Below, piece after piece: positions 19,569 to 29,402 of a DNA stretch of 47,975 bases. Source of the DNA: a virus. The stretch is taken from the IMG/VR virus record IMGVR_UViG_3300031857_000328, positions 1-47,975 of that record; one strand, 5' to 3'. A model generated the notes under the pieces. That model saw only the letters and a program-made list of their open reading frames with translations. It had not been told where the DNA came from and made no database searches. A program made the translations under genes and the position numbers. Within the stretch, counting starts at the first letter, position 1. Each line of letters opens with the position of its first letter.

Positions 19569-20843
19569 ATGTCAGCAAACATTTACAAAAGGTTTAACGT
19601 ATCTGATACTTTCGTAGTACCATATACAGCGAATAAAAGCTGGGATATAGATTCCGGCTCATTTGCTGATAATAGAATTGTAGTTAATATTGGGGTAAAT
19701 AAGAGTGGATCTATTTTTGATCCAAATACTGAATTTATCACTAATGGGCAGTATGAACGTTTAGTTTATAACTCAATTAATTTAAACTATTATCCTAACT
19801 TTTTACCTACATCATCTCATTTATATTTAACTGAGAGACAAGGTACAGCATATAATGATGGTACTTTAAGTACTCAATCTTATTATAATGGATTTGTCAA
19901 TCCAGGTAACTTAGATACAGTAAAATTCTTTCCAACCGCTTCTGATAGTGTTATTTATGTTGTTAACATACCTAAAACATTAACAAGCGAAAAGATTTTA
20001 CCAAGTACTTTTGAATTATATTTTAGTAGTGGTTCAACATACACAGCTAAAATATATGATGATGGAAATTATAATTTATTTTACAGTGGAAGCTCTGTAG
20101 CTTCATCAATTGGATCCACATTAACTAATGGTTCTTATATTGGTAATGTATTCTATGAACAAAATGTAGCTGTACTTACTATTATCCCTAACGCTGTAAG
20201 ATTATTAGGATGGAGAGGAGCTAATCCTTTCTGTATTCAAACTTCTCCTTCTCCTACTCCAAGTATAAGTGTAACTCCATCTGTGACACCTAGTATAAGT
20301 GTTACACCATCACAAACACCATCTATTACACCAAGTATAAGTATAACACCTAGCGTAACACCATCTGTTACACCTAGTATATCTGCAACACCATCTATTA
20401 GTATAACACCTAGTGTGACACCAAGTATAAGCATAACACCTAGTGAAACACCAAGTGTAAGTGTTACACCTAGTATAAGCATAACACCTAGTGAAACACC
20501 AAGTGTAAGTGTTACACCTAGTATTAGTATTACTCCATCAGTAACACCAAGTACCTCATTTAATCCTAACCCAACATTAACAGGAGTATTTGATAACCAA
20601 ACAATAGGTGGAGAATGTTTCCTATACCCAGGTGATTATGAAACACAACAGACATTCTATGTAACGTTTGCAGCACCTGCTACAATATCAGGAACTGTTA
20701 GAATTACCTTTGTAGACACTTCTTACTTAGACGCAACATTTGGTATAGGTGATACACAAACCAATCCTTCTACAACATTTAACTGTGGATGTGGTGTTAC
20801 TTGTAAATCAATAGCTAATGTAGTATCTTACGTTGTCTTATAA
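19569..20843 (+). CDS. adhesin-like fibre protein with Thr-Pro-Ser repeat stalk and Cys-containing tip
   Basis: 424 residues in three parts. Residues 1-~222 are beta-rich structural sequence. Residues ~225-330 are a long repeat of [10 protein letters not shown] type, a probable extended, flexible or glycosylatable stalk. Residues ~335-424 are a beta-sandwich-like tip with a GGECFLYPG turn and a CGCGVTCKS cluster. The layout (virion anchor, stalk, tip) suggests receptor contact. The stalk DNA contains a 48-base-period duplication that could recombine. Function inferred from architecture; no family recognised. Confidence 0.55.
20242..20559 (+). repeat. Thr-Pro-Ser stalk repeat array in 19569-20843
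   Basis: Degenerate 12/18-base units coding TPSI-S/TPSV-T. It includes a perfect duplication of 53 bases with a period of 48 (20424-20476 and 20472-20524), a sign of recent slippage or recombination. Confidence 0.8.
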
Positions 20844-20845
20844 AA

Positions 20846-20853
20846 TATTTATA
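20846..20853 (+). promoter_or_regulatory. TATTTATA element before 20858
   Basis: Exact TATTTATA four bases before the ATG of the second adhesin-like gene; spacing is too short for an ordinary promoter-leader arrangement. Confidence 0.35.
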
Positions 20854-20857
20854 AAAA

Positions 20858-21556
20858 ATGAGTAATACAGGATTTAAAGCATACACAAACTTAGAACAGT
20901 ACTATTTAGATAATGGTGTTGCTACTGGTGTTACTAAACCTAATACTATTGGAGATCCTGACTATGTTGCTCCTGTTTTAGATTTAACATTTTGTCCTTT
21001 ACCATCAGCTAGTCCTAGTGCTACCCCTTCAATAAGTGTAACACCATCAATTAGCGCAACACCTTCTATTACACCATCAATTACACCTAGTGTAACACCA
21101 TCTATATCTACTACTCCAAGTAATACACCAAGTATAAGCTTAACACCTAGTTTAACTCCATCTATTTCTATATCTGCTACACCTAGTGTGACCCCAACAG
21201 TGACACCAAGTATAACTCCATCACCATCTGTTGGTTATGCTCCTAGAGTAATAGACTTAAATGCAAGTACTAAATCTTGTTTTGGTGGTGGATGTAGTGA
21301 TTATTTAGGATGGGATATAACATTACTTGAACCAGTAAATGTAGATACAAACTATATTTTAGCTATTGAATTATATCAATTTGGTGTATATCAATACACA
21401 TACACAGCTTATGGTACAATCCTTGCTGGCCAAAACTATAATAGTAGTGATCCTTGTTTAGGTGGTGGTACTTATGTAGGATGTGGCTATACTGTGAATA
21501 ATGTTTGTATATCTTCAATTGATGCCCCAGTTAATCCATCAACTTTCGCTTGTTAA
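20858..21556 (+). CDS. adhesin-like protein with Thr-Pro-Ser stalk and Cys-rich tip
   Basis: 232 residues. A short N-terminus (residues 1-45, FKAYTNLEQYYLDNGVATG) precedes a TPS-type repeat stalk (about 48-127) and a ~105-residue tip with several Cys (SCFGGGCSDYLGWD, PCLGGGTYVGCGYT, VCISS, and a terminal Cys). The tip is unrelated at sequence level to that of the previous gene, although the stalks are alike, indicating modular exchange. A TATTTATA element ends four bases before the ATG. The stop lies two bases before the next ATG. Confidence 0.55.
   Translation: MSNTGFKAYTNLEQYYLDNGVATGVTKPNTIGDPDYVAPVLDLTFCPLPSASPSATPSISVTPSISATPSITPSITPSVTPSISTTPSNTPSISLTPSLTPSISISATPSVTPTVTPSITPSPSVGYAPRVIDLNASTKSCFGGGCSDYLGWDITLLEPVNVDTNYILAIELYQFGVYQYTYTAYGTILAGQNYNSSDPCLGGGTYVGCGYTVNNVCISSIDAPVNPSTFAC
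21001..21231 (+). repeat. Thr-Pro-Ser stalk repeat array in 20858-21556
   Basis: Degenerate 12/18-base units (CCATCAAT, ACACCAAGT themes) coding the stalk. More diverged than the neighbouring arrays. Confidence 0.7.
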
Positions 21557-21558
21557 TT

Positions 21559-22467
21559 ATGAATACTAGAACAATAAATACAGGAATTACAAGAGTAAAG
21601 TTTCAAAACAACCATGTTGTTTATGAGAACTTTATTAAGTGTTCTATAAAGGATTATGAATTTAATTTAAGTTATAACCCAACATTACTATCAGGTTCAC
21701 AAGCTGTTTTATTTCCATTTAGTTCATCTCTTAATGGTGATGTTTTTTATAATGTGACAGGATCTAAATACTTTGGTATATTAAAAGATTATGTGACTGG
21801 TTCTATTTCAGGATCAGAATTTTCACCGTATGTGACTGCTGTTGGTTTATATAATGATGCTCAAGAATTATTAGCTATAGCTAAAATGTCAGCTCCAATT
21901 CCAATATCATCTAATAGTGATATGACATTTTTAGTAAAATATGATACACAATGGACACCAAAACCATACTTTACACCAACTCCTTCACCTTCAGTAAGTC
22001 CATATCCATCACTTTCAATTAGTAATACACCAACGGTAACACCAAGTATTAGTGTAACTCCTAGTATGACACCAACAGTTACTCCTACTATAAGTAATAC
22101 ACCATCAGCAACACCATCAATAAGTTTAACTCCATCAATAAGTTTAACCCCATCAATAAGCTTAACACCATCAATTACTGCAACACCATCAGTGAGCTTA
22201 ACACCATCAATAAGTTTAACACCCTCACCTAGCGCACCTCCACCTTATTATTACTATTCACTTCTTAAATTTGATTGTAATAATAATTGTAGCCCAGTAT
22301 TCCCAGGTGGTGTAGGTAGATCAAGTACTCCATTAACATTAACTGGTCTTTATTATAAAATAGGTCCATATACATACCAACCTCAACAACTACTAGATCC
22401 ACAACCTTCATATGATGTTAATTTAGATGGTGCTCCATCAGATCCTGATTGTTTAACTGCTTGTTAA
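21559..22467 (+). CDS. adhesin-like fibre protein with shared N-terminal domain, repeat stalk and Cys-rich tip
   Basis: I chose ATG 21559 over an upstream TTG at 21550, which would overlap the previous stop. Residues 1-~130 form a domain also found at the C-terminus of the protein at 18464-19558 (VTAVGLYNDAQELLAIAKMS). A TPS-type stalk follows, encoded by at least six 18-base repeats, then a ~70-residue tip (YYYYSLLKFDCNNNCSPVF, ending DCLTAC). The architecture again suggests a host-contacting fibre or decoration protein. No enzymatic motif. Confidence 0.58.
   Translation: MNTRTINTGITRVKFQNNHVVYENFIKCSIKDYEFNLSYNPTLLSGSQAVLFPFSSSLNGDVFYNVTGSKYFGILKDYVTGSISGSEFSPYVTAVGLYNDAQELLAIAKMSAPIPISSNSDMTFLVKYDTQWTPKPYFTPTPSPSVSPYPSLSISNTPTVTPSISVTPSMTPTVTPTISNTPSATPSISLTPSISLTPSISLTPSITATPSVSLTPSISLTPSPSAPPPYYYYSLLKFDCNNNCSPVFPGGVGRSSTPLTLTGLYYKIGPYTYQPQQLLDPQPSYDVNLDGAPSDPDCLTAC
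21973..22245 (+). repeat. Thr-Pro-Ser stalk repeat array in 21559-22467
   Basis: Contains six successive 18-base units of CCATCAATAAGTTTAACA type from 22114 to 22221; the first three differ from each other by only one to three bases. Confidence 0.8.
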
Positions 22468-22486: not shown

Positions 22487-22915
22487 ATGAAATGGAAAAG
22501 CTGGGATGTAATTGAACCCGAAAAATATTATGGTTTTGTTTATAAAATTACCAACAACGTGACAGGTAAATTTTATATCGGAAAAAAAGTTTATTGGAAT
22601 AATAAAAAACATAAACTTACCAAAAAACAACTAGCAGAACAACCAACAGGACCTGGTCGAAAACCAACACATGAAATAATTCGTGTTGAAAGCGATTGGA
22701 AAACATATTGGGGTTCTAATAAACAATTACTTGCTGATATTAAACAGTATGGAGAGGAAAATTTTTATCGTTGGATATATAGACAATGTCTAACTAAAAA
22801 ACAACTCACATACTGGGAAATGCATCATCAGTGTAAAGAAGAAGTTTTAATCAGTAACAATAGATCTTACAACGACAATATACTAGGTAAGTTTTTTACC
22901 AAAGATTTGGCTTAG
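22487..22915 (+). CDS. GIY-YIG family endonuclease
   Basis: 142 residues. The start YYGFVYKITNNVTGKFYIGKK (about 14-34) is a GIY-YIG nuclease core (GFVY at 16-19 and FYIG at 29-32 as the paired motifs). WGSNKQLLADIKQYGEENF and a Glu within the helix YWEMHHQCK (about 107-115) fit the catalytic Arg/Glu region. No DNA-binding repeat domain follows, as in short free-standing phage homologues. It might be a homing endonuclease or a repair/recombination enzyme. It begins the block with early character. Confidence 0.75.
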   Translation: MKWKSWDVIEPEKYYGFVYKITNNVTGKFYIGKKVYWNNKKHKLTKKQLAEQPTGPGRKPTHEIIRVESDWKTYWGSNKQLLADIKQYGEENFYRWIYRQCLTKKQLTYWEMHHQCKEEVLISNNRSYNDNILGKFFTKDLA

Positions 22916-22942
22916 TAAAATAATTTAGCTATATTATTGGCT

Positions 22943-23878
22943 ATGATTAATGCAGCCTTACTACATACTGTAAACAGCGTATTAGGAAAAGGAAAAGAAA
23001 CGAGTAGTAACAACTACGCTTATAAATGTCCTTTTTGTAATCATCATAAGCCTAAACTAGAGGTGAACATGGTTCCTAATTTAAAAGGAGAAAATCCATG
23101 GCATTGTTGGGTATGTAACGCTAAAGGTAAAACATTAGTAGGTTTATTTAAAAAGATCAAAGTTACTTCTGACAAAATAGCTGAGTTAAAATCAATACTT
23201 GGTTTTACTCAAAAAGAAGAAGTAGTTCATGACAAAACAAAAGTAGAATTACCTAAAGAATATAAACCACTTACTAATCTCGCACGTACAGATATCGCCG
23301 CTAAACACGCTTTAATGTATTTAAAGAAACGAGGTATCAATAAGGCGGATATATTGAAGTATAATATAGGTTATTGTGAAGAAGGCAGGTATAACAACAG
23401 AATTATTGTACCATCATATGATGCTAACGGTGAATTAAACTATTTCATAGCCAGGGATATTAATCCTAACTCTAAGAAAAAATATGATGCACCAAAATGT
23501 AATAAAAACGAATTAATAGGACTTGAATATTTTATTAATTGGGATGTTCCTGTTATATTATGTGAGGGTATTTTTGATGCTATTGCTATTAAACGTAATG
23601 CAATACCATTACTTGGAAAAACATTTTCCAAAGCATTAATGATGAAATTAGTGCAATCAAATGTTAAAACAGTATACGTGTCTTTAGATAGGGACGCCTT
23701 AAAAGATGCTTTATCATACGCTGAACAACTTCTCAATTTAGGTAAAGACGTTTATCTGATTGATTTACAAGATAAAGACCCATCAGATATGGGTTTTGAA
23801 AAATTCACCAAATTAGTTCATGAAGCTGAGCAATTAACTCTCGGACAACTAATTTATAAAAAACTAGAATTAGCATGA
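22943..23878 (+). CDS. DnaG-type DNA primase
   Basis: Makes RNA primers for lagging-strand synthesis, alongside a helicase not in this window. I chose ATG 22943 over the in-frame TTG six bases upstream. Residues 29-58 form a zinc ribbon: Cys29, Cys32, Cys55, Cys58 in YKCPFCNHH and WHCWVC. The TOPRIM domain has Glu208 in VILCEGIFDA, Asp249 and Asp251 in YVSLDRD, and a DKDPSD turn near 277-282. At 311 residues it is close to T4 gp61 (342). The stop overlaps the next start, linking it to the exonuclease-like gene. Confidence 0.87.
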   Translation: MINAALLHTVNSVLGKGKETSSNNYAYKCPFCNHHKPKLEVNMVPNLKGENPWHCWVCNAKGKTLVGLFKKIKVTSDKIAELKSILGFTQKEEVVHDKTKVELPKEYKPLTNLARTDIAAKHALMYLKKRGINKADILKYNIGYCEEGRYNNRIIVPSYDANGELNYFIARDINPNSKKKYDAPKCNKNELIGLEYFINWDVPVILCEGIFDAIAIKRNAIPLLGKTFSKALMMKLVQSNVKTVYVSLDRDALKDALSYAEQLLNLGKDVYLIDLQDKDPSDMGFEKFTKLVHEAEQLTLGQLIYKKLELA

Positions 23879-24666
23879 TTGATAGAAACGTCAACATAAT
23901 CAAAGATCCAAAAATCAAACGTATTGTAGAATACAGTGCGGGTGATAAACAAGTAAATGTTTTAGACTCTCGTTTTTATAGACGAAATGAAGAATATTAC
24001 CCATCAGTAACTTCAGTATTAAACTTTTTCCCTAAAAATCAGTTTTTCCATTCATGGTTAAAAGATGTAGGACACAATAGTGATATTATTGCTTCTAAAG
24101 CAGCAGCTGAAGGTACTCAAGTACATACAGCTATTGATCGCTTCCTAAACGGAGAAGAAATTAATTGGTTAGATGAAAATGGTAGAGCTGAATATAGTTT
24201 AGATGTGTGGAAAATGATCCTTAAGTTTGCTGACTTTTGGAACACACATAAACCAGAACTAATAGTAAGTGAATATCATTTATTTTCTGATGAACATAAG
24301 TATGCTGGTACAGCTGACTTAATTGTTCGTATGAATGAAAAACTATGGTTACTAGATATTAAAACATCTAACTCACTCCATACATCATATGACTTACAAT
24401 TAGCTGCTTACTCTAAAGCATGGAATGAAACCCATGATGCTAAAATAGAGGAAACCGGTATTTTATGGCTTAAAGCAAACACACGTAGTGAAGGAAAAAA
24501 AGATAAAATACAAGGTAAAGGATGGGAATTAAGAGCAATAAGTAATATAGAAGATAACTTTGAAATGTTCATGAATATCTATAAGATATATAAACTTGAA
24601 AATCCTAACTTCAAACCAGTAACCGAATCATTACCTACCTCAATAAAACTTGACCCTAATCTGTAA
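23875..24666 (+). CDS. PD-(D/E)XK superfamily exonuclease (RecB/Cas4-like)
   Basis: 263 residues. The nuclease core is visible: His84 (TQVHTAID), Glu133 (VSEYHLFS), Asp148 in YAGTADLIV, the Asp161-Ile-Lys163 triad DIKTSN and Gln175-Tyr179 in LQLAAYSK. This is the RecB/Cas4 pattern with motif QxxxY. No iron-sulphur Cys cluster is present, separating it from true Cas4. Phage proteins of this type act in recombination or degradation of host or damaged DNA. It follows the primase with overlap. Confidence 0.83.
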   Translation: MIDRNVNIIKDPKIKRIVEYSAGDKQVNVLDSRFYRRNEEYYPSVTSVLNFFPKNQFFHSWLKDVGHNSDIIASKAAAEGTQVHTAIDRFLNGEEINWLDENGRAEYSLDVWKMILKFADFWNTHKPELIVSEYHLFSDEHKYAGTADLIVRMNEKLWLLDIKTSNSLHTSYDLQLAAYSKAWNETHDAKIEETGILWLKANTRSEGKKDKIQGKGWELRAISNIEDNFEMFMNIYKIYKLENPNFKPVTESLPTSIKLDPNL

Positions 24667-24687
24667 CATATCTTAATTTAAAATAAG
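24650..24687 (+). promoter_or_regulatory. TTGACC...AATAAG promoter-like element before the lipoprotein gene
   Basis: TTGACC at 24650-24655, overlapping the end of the exonuclease gene, and AATAAG at 24682-24687. The tract AACATATCTT before AATAAG is shared with the copy at 25862. Two further copies lie downstream. Confidence 0.5.
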
Positions 24688-24693
24688 TATGTT

Positions 24694-25860
24694 ATGAAAA
24701 AATTATGGTTATTAGTGACTGTGGTCACTTTATTTAGTTGCTCAAAATCAGAATTGAGCGTTATGAACACTCCTTCAGAAACAATTGTGTTGAAAGGAGA
24801 CATTACAACTAATAAAACGTTAACAACTAATAATGTTTACATATTAGATAGGAATGTTCATGTCAAAAACTGTTCACAATTAACAATTGAACCAGGAACA
24901 ACCATTAAAAGCAGTAATAAAGGGATGCTCATAATTGAGCAATGTTCTAAAATTATTGCTAATGGAACTAGTAATAAACCTATTGTATTTACTTCAGGTA
25001 AGCCCGATGGACAAAAATCACCAGGAGATTTTGGTGGAATTGTTATATTAGGTTACGCAAAAACCAATAACAGTAATGCTGTATTTAACTTACAATGTAT
25101 AGGTGCTCCTTATGGTGGAAATAATGACAATGATAATAGTGGTATTTTACGTTATGTAAGAATTGAGTATGGAGGATTTCCATTACCTGCTCAATTTGAT
25201 ATGGGTGCTTTAACATTAGGAGGTGTTGGTAAAGGAACTATAATTGAATATGTTCAAACAGCTTATTCAGGAGATTGTTCATTTTATTTTATGGGAGGCT
25301 CTGTGAACACTAGTAATTTATATTCATATGCTAGTGCTGATGATGATTTTAGTTTTGATTATGGTTATAATGGTACTGTAAAAAACAGTGTAGGTAAAAA
25401 AGACAAAATGTATTGTCATCAACCAGTACTTGGAGAACAATTTAATAATGGTAATGGTGTTGAGTGTAAAAACAATGGCTCAACTACTATACCAACTTAT
25501 CCTAAGCTAGATAACATGACATTAATTTTAGATTCATCAACTTTAAGAATTGGATCTGGTTTATATACTGAAGATGTCTCTAAATTTGAATTAACTAACT
25601 CAACAATAACTGAATGGAATAATTTAGGAGTATTATTGGGTAATAATAGTTACCAATCATATATGAGTAATAATAGTAAATTAACTAATAATAAATTTAA
25701 TTCAGTTTGGGGTTCAGTATGTTATCAAACAAAAGAACTTAAAACTAAAGCAAAAACTGAAGGTAATATTGAATCGTTTATTGATAAACATCAAATAGAA
25801 ACATTATCTAAACCAACTTGGACCAATACTTGGACACGATTCCCAACTAAAGGGAACTAG
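24694..25860 (+). CDS. exported lipoprotein with beta-helix-like repeats (Bacteroidota-type)
   Basis: 388 residues. Residues 1-16 are a lipoprotein signal: MKKLWLL, hydrophobic core, then lipobox LFSC with lipidation at Cys16. After it comes SKSE, loosely similar to the Lys/acidic surface-export signal of Bacteroidota lipoproteins. Residues about 40-360 contain repeated strands (YILDRNVHVKNCSQLTIEPG, then GTTIKSSNKGMLIIE, KPIVFTSG, DFGGIVILG), as in a family of Bacteroidota surface proteins predicted to form right-handed beta helices. In a phage this suggests a host-acquired conversion or superinfection-exclusion gene. Upstream is a TTGACC/AATAAG promoter-like signal. Function unproven. Confidence 0.75.
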   Translation: MKKLWLLVTVVTLFSCSKSELSVMNTPSETIVLKGDITTNKTLTTNNVYILDRNVHVKNCSQLTIEPGTTIKSSNKGMLIIEQCSKIIANGTSNKPIVFTSGKPDGQKSPGDFGGIVILGYAKTNNSNAVFNLQCIGAPYGGNNDNDNSGILRYVRIEYGGFPLPAQFDMGALTLGGVGKGTIIEYVQTAYSGDCSFYFMGGSVNTSNLYSYASADDDFSFDYGYNGTVKNSVGKKDKMYCHQPVLGEQFNNGNGVECKNNGSTTIPTYPKLDNMTLILDSSTLRIGSGLYTEDVSKFELTNSTITEWNNLGVLLGNNSYQSYMSNNSKLTNNKFNSVWGSVCYQTKELKTKAKTEGNIESFIDKHQIETLSKPTWTNTWTRFPTKGN

Positions 25861-25861
25861 A

Positions 25862-25900
25862 CTGACCGCGACTACTAACATATCTTTATTATATAATAAG
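25862..25900 (+). promoter_or_regulatory. TGACCGCG plus palindrome promoter-like element
   Basis: TGACCGCG at 25863-25870 and the perfect 14-base palindrome TTATTATATAATAA at 25886-25899 followed by G. The start codon is three bases on. A candidate -35/-10 pair is CTGACC and TATTAT with 19 bases between. Confidence 0.55.
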
Positions 25901-25902
25901 AA

Positions 25903-26103
25903 ATGAAAGATATGAACACACAAGAATTAATGAATAAAGTTTTATTGACCGCGGAAGAGCGTGATAGTGTAAATTCTGTTAATCCAGGATGGGTTAAACA
26001 GTTTTTATTTCATAATACATGGAATAATACGTATCTAAATTTAGACGTATATAGTGAGGTTGACCATGAAAAACGTCAATTTGAAATGGAACGTGGTTAT
26101 TAG
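25903..26103 (+). CDS. small hypothetical protein
   Basis: 66 residues, not recognised. It begins MKDMNTQELMNKVLLTAEERD and has a Trp/Phe/Asn-rich centre (NPGWVKQFLFHNTWNN) and a charged end. A promoter-like element with a 14-base palindrome ends three bases before the ATG, so translation would begin with almost no leader; the ATG at 25912 (MNTQ) is an alternative. Probably an early phage protein of the takeover type, based on size and promoter class only. Confidence 0.5.
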   Translation: MKDMNTQELMNKVLLTAEERDSVNSVNPGWVKQFLFHNTWNNTYLNLDVYSEVDHEKRQFEMERGY

Positions 26104-26109
26104 GATTGA

Positions 26110-26148
26110 TTGACCGCGGTTATTTCACTAAATTTATTATATAATAAG
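26110..26148 (+). promoter_or_regulatory. TTGACCGCGG plus palindrome promoter-like element
   Basis: TTGACCGCGG at 26110-26119 and TTATTATATAATAA at 26134-26147, then G; the same spacing as the copy at 25862 (23 bases from TGACC to palindrome). It precedes the gene at 26160. Confidence 0.6.
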
Positions 26149-26159
26149 AAATAAAAGTT

Positions 26160-26351
26160 ATGATAAACGAACAATTAGTACAAGAAGCAGTGGATTTATT
26201 TATTGAAACAAAATCATTAGAGAGTATGGATGCTGAACATCCGATGTTTGAAGAATTGTATCAAAAAGAATGTCAATTGTATGTACTATTTGGTAGTATG
26301 TCTGATGATGATGCGAATGAGTATAGAACAGTAGTTAAATATATTAAATAA
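26160..26351 (+). CDS. small acidic hypothetical protein
   Basis: 63 residues, highly acidic and helical (INEQLVQEAVDLFIETKSLE, DDDANEYRTVVKYIK). No known domain. It has the second copy of the block's promoter-like element just upstream (26110-26148) and is followed six bases later by the AT-hook gene, so the two are probably co-transcribed. Acidity suggests a protein-binding or DNA-mimic role, but that is speculative. Confidence 0.5.
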   Translation: MINEQLVQEAVDLFIETKSLESMDAEHPMFEELYQKECQLYVLFGSMSDDDANEYRTVVKYIK

Positions 26352-26850: not shown

Positions 26851-27600
26851 ATGAGGATTAGAATCAAAGAGGCACAACAAACGCCACAAGCAATATTCAT
26901 GGCCGGACCAGCTGGTTCCGGTAAATCCTTTATATCTAAATCATTACCACTTTCTAAATTCCAAGTAATAAATGTCGACGACACTTATGAGGAATTGCTG
27001 AAAGCATCAGGAATGGGCATGAAACAAAAGGATTTTGATCCTGAACAGTTGTCACAAGCCGCTAAATTAATGGGCCAAGCACAAAAAACTACTAAGGAAA
27101 AATACGCCAAAGCGCTCGAAAATTTAAACGACATTATTATTGATGGTACAGGTGCGGCATCTCGTCCTTTACTCAAGAAAAAGGCGGAATTAGAGGCTTT
27201 AGGCTATGAAACTATGATGGTAATGATATATGTTTCTCCAATGACATCACTTGAACGTAATGCTAATAGAGATCGTTCATTAATGCCAGGTATTGTTTTA
27301 AGAACATGGAGAGATATTAATCAAAATATTGATATTTACAAACAAGCGTTTGGAAATAATTTTGTTTTAATTAATAACGATTTAAAAGACGCTGATAAGA
27401 GTTTTGATCCTCAAGAAATAAAACGTAGATTTTTTGACACATCTAAAGCCAAAGGTAAACCAAAAACACCTGAAGAAATGGCTAAATCAAAAGCAGATGT
27501 TGAACAACTAAATAAAGATATAAACACACAACTACAGAACATTCCTGAATTTACACCAGTAAATGATGCTGTTAGTAAAATAAAGGCATTTATTAAATGA
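26851..27600 (+). CDS. P-loop kinase, zeta-toxin/polynucleotide-kinase-like
   Basis: 249 residues. The Walker A motif GPAGSGKS is at 19-26, followed by NVDDTYEELL, IIIDGTGAASRP, and a lid region with paired Arg (LERNANRDRS at about 134-143), as in zeta-toxin and AAA_33-type kinases. The family phosphorylates small molecules, nucleotides or nucleic-acid 5' ends; the substrate is unknown. It opens with MRIRIKE-A, giving an I-x-E|A prohead-protease-like site. An element of TATTTATC form precedes the ATG by three bases. Overlaps the fusion enzyme by four bases (ATGA). Confidence 0.75.
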   Translation: MRIRIKEAQQTPQAIFMAGPAGSGKSFISKSLPLSKFQVINVDDTYEELLKASGMGMKQKDFDPEQLSQAAKLMGQAQKTTKEKYAKALENLNDIIIDGTGAASRPLLKKKAELEALGYETMMVMIYVSPMTSLERNANRDRSLMPGIVLRTWRDINQNIDIYKQAFGNNFVLINNDLKDADKSFDPQEIKRRFFDTSKAKGKPKTPEEMAKSKADVEQLNKDINTQLQNIPEFTPVNDAVSKIKAFIK

Positions 27601-29402
27601 TAGATTTAAATACAATACTAAACGAGCTAAACGAAGAGGATACTCAACAAACACCTCCAGCTATCTGTTACTATCCAGGTGGATTTAAACCTCCACATGA
27701 GGGACATTTTGAAGTACTTAAAGATTTAGCTTCACGCCCTTATATTACTAAAGTAATAGTATTAATTGGACATAAAACTCGTGATGGTATAACTAAAGAA
27801 CAAAGTAAACGTATTTGGGATTTATATTTAGCTACATCTCCAATTGCAAAAGCAGTTGTTAAAATAAGTGAAGATGCTTCTCCAATCAAAGATATTTTTA
27901 GTGCTTTTGATAGGGATTTAGAATTAAAAGCATATGTTGCTGGTGCCAAAAATGAAGTAGAAGAACAAGATTATTTTACTCCACTACAAAAAGCATTTAG
28001 TACTAGAGTAATGCCTCTATCAATTGAAGAAAAAGTTGTGACAAACAATAAACGCCTATCAGGAACTCAAGTACGTGAATTAGTAACTAAACTAAAACAA
28101 TCAGTACTTGATTTACGCTCAGTATCAGATAAAAACTCAACTGAATATTCTAAAGCTAGAAATAATTACTTAAACACATATAAAGAATTAGAAGGCTGTT
28201 TCCCAGAAGTAATTGTTCAAAAAGGACAGTTTGATGATATACTTAAAATATTAGGAATACCAGTATTAAATGTAGATCAACTTCAAGAAGGACAAGAAGA
28301 TGGTAATTTAATTATACGTGTACCTTATCATTTAACACCTAAAATTGAGAATTATTTAAATACAATGTTAATACCATTTGAATACTCTCAACAAGCATTT
28401 AGTGGTAAAGAAAGACGTATGTTAATTCCTAATTTAGGAGATTCACCTGAACAAAAAGAAAAAGTACTTAATTATTTAAGTAAACATAATGTACCTGTTA
28501 ATGTTGAAGAAGATTTATTCACTATTAATTGGTGGAAATCAACATTAGAAGAAACATTAACTGAACCACAAGATAAAACAGACAATATTATAGCTGATTT
28601 TATTGATTTCGTTTCTCAGGCTCTTGATTTACAACAAGTACCTAAAATTACTTTTAGTGATGATGAGCAATTAGCTAAAAAAATGCACGCGTTAGGTGCT
28701 TATCAACCTAAAACTGATGAATTATTAGTAGTTAAAGGATCAAGACTAACAGCTGATATTTTACGTACATTAGCTCATGAGTTAGTACATCGTAAACAAG
28801 CCGAAATAGGACCTTTAAGTGCTGAAGATGGTAAAACAGGATCTGAGGCTGAAAATGAAGCTAATGCTGCTGCTGGTGTTTTATTAAGACAATTTGGACA
28901 ATATAGACCAGAAATATTCGAGGAAGATGTTAAAGAAAAAGCTGACTACAAGGTATATTGTGACATGGATGGTGTGTTAGTTGACTTTGAAAAAGGATAT
29001 AAAGAATTAACTGGTGAAGATGCTAGTTATAATACCAACCCAGAAGAATTTTGGGCTCCAATCACTAAAGCAGGAGCAGCATTTTGGATTAAATTACCTT
29101 GGATGCCTGATGGAAAACAATTATGGGATTATATCAAACCATATAATCCATCATTATTATCAGCTCCATCACGTGAGGAATCATCTAAAATAGGTAAATT
29201 TACTTGGGTAAAAAGAAATATGCCTGGTACTAAACTTATCTTACGTTCAGCAGAGCGTAAACAAGAATTTGCAACCCCAAACTCTATCTTAATTGATGAT
29301 AGAGCAGATAATATACAACGTTGGAAAGATGCTGGTGGTATTGGTATTCACCATACATCAGCTTCAGATACAATTCAACAGTTGAAAAAAATAGGTTTAT
29401 GA
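27597..29402 (+). CDS. three-domain fusion: nucleotidyltransferase, HExxH metallopeptidase-like, HAD phosphatase
   Basis: 601 residues. Domain 1 (about 20-165) is a cytidylyltransferase/NMNAT-type nucleotidyltransferase: GGFKPPHEGH at 28-37 (the HxGH motif) and LSGTQVRE at 154-161 (counterpart of ISSTxxR). Domain 2 (about 330-435) holds a zinc-peptidase HELVH at 394-398 with acidic ligand candidates in EAENEANAAAG (about 417-427). Domain 3 (about 450-601) is HAD-like: DMDGVLVDF at 456-464 and ILIDDRADN at 564-572, as in 5'-deoxynucleotidases. The first residues (IDLNTILNE, cut site L-N-E at 8-10) resemble a capsid-targeting leader. Domains are clear, physiological substrates not. Confidence 0.78.
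   Translation: MIDLNTILNELNEEDTQQTPPAICYYPGGFKPPHEGHFEVLKDLASRPYITKVIVLIGHKTRDGITKEQSKRIWDLYLATSPIAKAVVKISEDASPIKDIFSAFDRDLELKAYVAGAKNEVEEQDYFTPLQKAFSTRVMPLSIEEKVVTNNKRLSGTQVRELVTKLKQSVLDLRSVSDKNSTEYSKARNNYLNTYKELEGCFPEVIVQKGQFDDILKILGIPVLNVDQLQEGQEDGNLIIRVPYHLTPKIENYLNTMLIPFEYSQQAFSGKERRMLIPNLGDSPEQKEKVLNYLSKHNVPVNVEEDLFTINWWKSTLEETLTEPQDKTDNIIADFIDFVSQALDLQQVPKITFSDDEQLAKKMHALGAYQPKTDELLVVKGSRLTADILRTLAHELVHRKQAEIGPLSAEDGKTGSEAENEANAAAGVLLRQFGQYRPEIFEEDVKEKADYKVYCDMDGVLVDFEKGYKELTGEDASYNTNPEEFWAPITKAGAAFWIKLPWMPDGKQLWDYIKPYNPSLLSAPSREESSKIGKFTWVKRNMPGTKLILRSAERKQEFATPNSILIDDRADNIQRWKDAGGIGIHHTSASDTIQQLKKIGL

Follow-up and report, generated by a model that had tools for sequence, protein, structure and literature searches.

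A divergent phage-encoded beta-helix lipoprotein from a TBDT-linked surface protein family of Bacteroidota

The lipoprotein gene and its surroundings

We have analysed the complete IMG/VR virus record IMGVR_UViG_3300031857_000328, a stretch of 47,975 bases (hereafter the window) that is probably a genome fragment. Judged from its hallmark genes, which encode a terminase, a T4-type portal, a gp6-like baseplate wedge and a lysozyme, the DNA is that of a T4-type phage, and a search at the DNA level found no near relative among phages. The main features are collected in Table 1. Upstream of the lipoprotein gene, long TPSISVTPS-type repeats (phrog_15511) occur in three genes at 19569-22467; these genes are probably tail-fibre or adhesin-like. 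A GIY-YIG-like homing endonuclease (phrog_314) is encoded at 22487-22915, its top PHROG match being phrog_447, labelled NAD synthetase. The 601-aa product of 27597-29402 is a fusion of a nucleotidyltransferase-like start and a 5'-3' deoxyribonucleotidase-like end (phrog_2643).

Table 1. Positions of the lipoprotein gene, its neighbours, upstream elements and phage hallmark genes in the window
Feature	Positions	Strand	Basis or remark
388-aa lipoprotein, right-handed beta-helix, ElpS/FI-FIII-like	24694..25860	+	lipobox, homologues, fold
Signal peptide II with lipobox LFSC	24694..24741	+	Cys16 codon 24739-24741
Promoter-like element TTGACC...TAACATATCTT...AAAATAAG	about 24650..24687	+	resembles element before 25903
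Related element TGACCGCG...TAACATATCTT...ATAATAAG before gene 25903	25862..25900	+	
Element TGACCGCG...TTATTATATAATAAG before gene 26160	26110..26148	+	like element before 25903
DNA primase gene	22937..23878	+	phrog_47
Exonuclease gene, directly upstream of lipoprotein gene	23875..24666	+	phrog_298
66-aa ORF, function without assignment, next downstream of lipoprotein gene	25903..26103	+	
63-aa ORF, function without assignment	26160..26351	+	
gp6-like baseplate wedge (phage hallmark)	8707..10581	+	phrog_219, E 7.6e-19
Terminase large subunit (phage hallmark)	42695..44284	+	phrog_2, E 4.7e-47
T4-type portal protein (phage hallmark)	44315..46201	+	phrog_213, E 2.6e-60

The first-pass annotation had described the product of the lipoprotein gene as a lipoprotein with an LFSC lipobox and a beta-helix-like body, and both features were borne out. 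The N-terminus (MKKLWLLVTVVTLFSC-SKSE) comprises a basic start, a hydrophobic stretch and the lipobox with Cys16, and the frame stays open over 388 aa. It was the only convincing lipobox protein in a scan of the window; four further pattern matches were dismissed as TTG-start frames on the opposite strand. The AlphaFold2 model (mean pLDDT 82.9, pTM 0.84, with a confident body) aligned to right-handed parallel beta-helix enzymes and tailspikes, the top structural alignment being to AlgG (Z 22.9, 256 residues, 3.4 A). Foldseek alone gave low TM-scores, while VIA-align gave Z >19 to many beta-helices. Such matches of a predicted model support the fold only, not a function. Sequence searches of Pfam, NCBIfam and the PDB yielded neither a useful match nor a family name, and weak matches to RsiV and JUQZ were dismissed. 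The PHROGs search returned weak matches only (E >=0.18), none of them to a tail protein, and NCBIfam gave no match to the type IX secretion (T9SS) sorting domain TIGR04183 in this protein.

The element preceding the gene overlaps the 3' end of the exonuclease gene. Its comparison with the element before gene 25903 gave a local score of 18, where shuffled sequences averaged 8.2 (0/2000 shuffles); the elements before 25903 and 26160 also resembled each other (0/2000 shuffles), and the direct match between those before 24694 and 26160 was weak (p 0.19). Common to the elements before 25903 and 26160 is a GACCGCG box. It has three copies within 255 bases (25864-25870, 25947-25953 and 26112-26118), the only ones in the window (0.12 expected). 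Two of them precede small genes, with ATAATAAG 29 bases further on, an arrangement that looks like an early or middle promoter.

A different motif, ATATTTATA, occurred 12 times in the window against 5.0 +/- 2.1 expected and tended to precede structural genes. It was found upstream of 1769, 7821, 11237, 17788, 20858, 30347, 40419, 42695, 44315 and 46238, and the genes behind it include structural and packaging genes; it is likely a late promoter of this phage. The gene had been credited with a promoter-like signal of its own and with expression independent of late genes, and each of these proposals stood in part. The upstream element is indeed distinct from ATATTTATA, but a sigma-70 promoter reading was rejected, the window scan giving 15 such promoters against 24.6 expected in shuffled sequence. 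The late-like motif is likewise absent before the lipoprotein gene, but the element found there, which fits a separate promoter class, resembles that of the next gene and is no proof of timing.

These data also bear on the idea that the protein is a structural part of the virion, for instance a tailspike, which we regard as very improbable. Many tailspikes are beta-helices and tail-fibre-like genes lie 2-7 kb upstream, but the protein has a signal peptide and a lipobox, and its nearest sequence relatives are cell-surface proteins. Moreover, its gene sits between replication genes and small ORFs, without ATATTTATA upstream, and a PHROG tail match is absent.

Bacterial relatives and their TBDT and phosphate context

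A scan of bacterial genomes confirmed 568 candidate loci for the family. The top matches were 38-44% identical to the window protein over about 250-300 residues (E down to 4e-59), and the best 80 of the 568 loci were nearly all from Bacteroidota, in agreement with the earlier description of the protein as Bacteroidota-type. Distant kin were present in Pseudoalteromonas and other Proteobacteria. A beta-helix relative on the Pseudoalteromonas plasmid pPBSW1 (L176) lies within a cluster of ExbB, ExbD, TonB and TonB-dependent receptor (TBDT) genes, and thus the TonB link of the family reaches beyond Bacteroidota.

The gene neighbourhoods were examined in the best 80 of the 568 loci. Of the 73 loci with enough upstream DNA, 65 had a TBDT gene as the immediate upstream neighbour, in the same orientation. 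PhoB- and PhoR-like genes were both found within 5 kb in 11 of the 80 loci, six of which had the order TBDT, beta-helix protein, PhoB, PhoR, with the regulators directly downstream. Locus L081 (Flavobacterium micromati) had the layout PhoR, PhoB, TBDT, beta-helix gene; its regulator genes and those of L016 gave top or near-top scores against the PhoB and PhoR/PnpS models, below the equivalog cut-offs. At another locus (L038), a phosphate-selective porin and a PHO4 phosphate transporter were encoded nearby. A normal PhoU gene was present in 8 of the 48 host genomes tested, and because PhoU was absent from most of them the linkage test covers these eight genomes only: PhoU and a family member were at most 5 kb apart in two of the eight, where 0.036 would be expected (P about 0.0005). 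For the family as a whole, the evidence of a phosphorus role is correlative.

The best published match, likened by description and layout, is the group formed by FI/FII/FIII and ElpS. FI, FII and FIII of F. johnsoniae (Fjoh_3856, 0546 and 4889) are hypothetical lipoproteins, FII bearing a pectin-lyase-type fold signature (PMC8115612). The genes of FI and FII adjoin a TBDT gene, that of FII being part of the phoBR cluster and downstream of the TBDT. Phosphate depletion strongly induces FII, and in cells starved of phosphate no exoprotein is more abundant than FI (PMC8115612). The three proteins were likened by their authors to a low-phosphate Caulobacter lipoprotein (PMC8115612), which we take to be ElpS. 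ElpS (CC0170) of Caulobacter crescentus is an outer-membrane lipoprotein and phosphate-starvation product with an adjacent TBDT gene, its release depends on type II secretion, and homologues have been reported in Bacteroides (PMC2996285).

The gene neighbourhoods of the relatives, taken with the published expression data, place a TBDT partnership in the phosphate-starvation response first among the explanations. Hence, we tentatively favour, at somewhat less than an even chance, a host-derived surface lipoprotein that works with a TBDT, most likely capturing phosphorus. The gene would have been acquired from the Bacteroidota TBDT-partner family that includes FI/FII/FIII and ElpS. The infected host would lipidate the protein at Cys16 and display it on the outer membrane, where the beta-helix would most likely work beside a host TBDT and help the cell to take up the phosphorus on which phage DNA synthesis depends. 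We infer that the protein reaches the surface and docks to a host TBDT, that it serves the phosphorus supply and that this divergent copy is still active. The window record, itself probably a fragment, contained no TBDT (Plug domain), and none of its scanned genes was recognisable as a phosphate gene.

The same fold could instead serve a surface enzyme or carbohydrate binder with a new substrate, a beta-helix acting on host or environmental polysaccharide. Among solved structures, the nearest folds are those of alginate epimerases and lyases, of pectate lyases and of tailspike depolymerases, and FI-FIII were modelled on polygalacturonase (PMC8115612). However, identity to these folds is about 10%, the fold is generic and implies no function, and the linkage seen for the family is to TBDT and PhoB/PhoR rather than to glycan enzymes. 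We consider this reading rather unlikely.

Phage relatives and divergence of the window copy

The first-pass annotation had also stated that phages rarely carry such genes. This was contradicted by at least 80 IMG/VR contigs that encode relatives of the window protein (117 confirmed in the scan). Of the 41 relative-bearing records tested, 11 had a T4-type portal and 15 a match to terminase, several of the latter weak; many of the records are fragments, and the viral nature of the rest relies on IMG/VR. The relatives were of two types, namely lipoproteins of about 330-430 aa and proteins of about 520-590 aa with an ordinary signal peptide (signal peptide I). All four of the long forms tested carried TIGR04183, the type A sorting domain of the T9SS; a phage with T9SS sorting domains has already been reported (PMC7468147).

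A TBDT gene was directly adjacent in 20 of the 80 phage loci listed (60 of the 80 were without), mostly 2-6 bases downstream of the beta-helix gene, which is the reverse of the host order. In the tree, a phage clade of 18 rows was sister to host genes from operons of TBDT, beta-helix protein, PhoB and PhoR, and the TBDTs of this clade were 46-57% identical to those of the same operons. Judging by this branching, one large phage clade derives from kin of host PhoB/PhoR-operon genes. Some members of the clade, L130 among them, had a metallophosphoesterase and a glycosyltransferase encoded next door. Such a pair beside the beta-helix gene lies at 12566-13998 in L130 and at 11539-12971 in L114, and its metallophosphoesterase shares 38% identity with a counterpart from L081, a host locus linked to PhoB/PhoR; that these neighbours have to do with a lipid exchange that saves phosphate is conjecture.

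Bacteroidota phages repeatedly carry a family of outer-surface proteins, sometimes paired with a TBDT of their own. This repeated carriage, together with the kinship to PhoB/PhoR operons, suggests that phages rebuild the outer-membrane uptake machinery of the host during infection. The recurrence of a TBDT-linked surface family in phages is more interesting than the single gene of the window. Our literature search found no report of a phage-borne TBDT or of this family; its coverage was partial, and so it is weak evidence.

We have compared the window protein with 80 host rows and 41 other phage rows by alignment and tree. Seven residues were changed in the window protein only (E169D, N171G, D195C, E198Y, F200M, D220S and D259K); E169, N171, D195, E198, F200, D220 and D259 (window numbering) were kept in 80/80 host and 41/41 other phage rows. 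D194, D216, D217 and E257 were retained. The protein matched 63 of the 87 host-conserved columns; further phage lipoproteins matched 62-69 of these columns yet retained the invariant residues. The loss of otherwise invariant residues means that the activity of the window protein may be altered or lost, and points to a scaffold that has been preserved and a working site that has changed or disappeared. With these seven residues different, we have filed the protein as a divergent homologue and not as a proven functional member of the family. It shares with the family the homology of the beta-helix domain, the signal peptide II with lipobox and the right-handed beta-helix, and lacks the invariant residues and an adjacent TBDT, the latter being usual but not universal.

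In a phylogenetic comparison with host homologues, as the earlier annotation had proposed, the window protein stood on a long branch and its placement was uncertain. Judged by portal (52-54% identical) and terminase (57%), the phage lineage closest to the window phage is that of L101, which carries the T9SS form. Common origin with this L101-type gene was rejected (p-AU 0.011), so a separate acquisition of the window gene is likely, if tentative owing to the long branches. Grouping with the phage lipoprotein clade was not rejected (p-AU 0.44) and is a candidate placement only.

The long branch and the relaxed invariant residues would suit a neutral passenger captured from a host and without a role for the phage. 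Against this, the 388-codon frame is intact, the C-terminal motif of the family is kept and many phage lineages have genes of this kind. The GC (0.301) and GC3 (0.157) of the gene are typical of the window phage as well, so that it does not stand out as recently acquired. A passenger seems improbable to us.

The lost residues also make a blocking or decoy role conceivable. The protein could have kept its scaffold and docking surface and lost its working site, acting as a lid that blocks a host TBDT and excludes TBDT-using phages; we hold this, the main rival of the phosphorus reading, to be unlikely, though worth weighing. Only a little less credit goes to the specific version in which a phosphate-starvation lipoprotein has become an inactive mimic, capping the TBDT from outside against rival phages. 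Consistent with a decoy, the fold and the predicted lipid anchor are kept where otherwise invariant residues are lost, the family is genetically tied to TBDTs, the element before the gene differs from the late-like motif, and TBDTs have been proposed, by docking only, as Bacteroides phage receptors (PMC10569736). However, receptor binding and exclusion are putative here, the lost residues may mean a new ligand instead of inactivity, and related phages have intact versions and even their own TBDT, which is unlike blocking. Exclusion of other phages, which the first-pass annotation had put forward, is a possible but unproven role of the window protein. If the decoy reading is true, a receptor would be blocked by a decoy of its own natural partner. 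The carriage of this family by phages may also help to work out what FI/FII/FIII and ElpS do, and in the search for the working site the window protein, as a natural variant that lacks the invariant residues, lends itself to comparison.

Comparison with known systems

A lipoprotein that blocks a TBDT is known from phage T5, namely Llp, and as a decoy the window protein would be a surface analogue of it. The T9SS-sorted phage forms (L101, L088, L105 and L118) are phage-borne and share the beta-helix body, but they have signal peptide I and TIGR04183 in place of a lipid anchor, and their invariant residues are intact.

Phosphorus-acquisition genes are known from phages, and 17 kinds have been listed, pstS, phoD and ppa among them (PMC10987575). 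As would the window gene on the reading favoured here, they are thought to aid the phosphorus supply of the host; unlike it, they encode transporters, enzymes and regulators, with no TBDT or beta-helix lipoprotein among the kinds listed (PMC10987575).

ElpS resembles the window family in being a lipoprotein whose gene has a TBDT-gene neighbour, and differs from the window protein in being proteobacterial and released in a type II-dependent manner; the likeness is one of description. FI/FII/FIII are likewise lipoproteins, and the phoBR-cluster layout of FII is that of host locus L081. They differ from the window protein in being cellular, and are likened to it by description and not by sequence identity. 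The window copy, unlike the sampled members of the family, is without the residues that are invariant in them.
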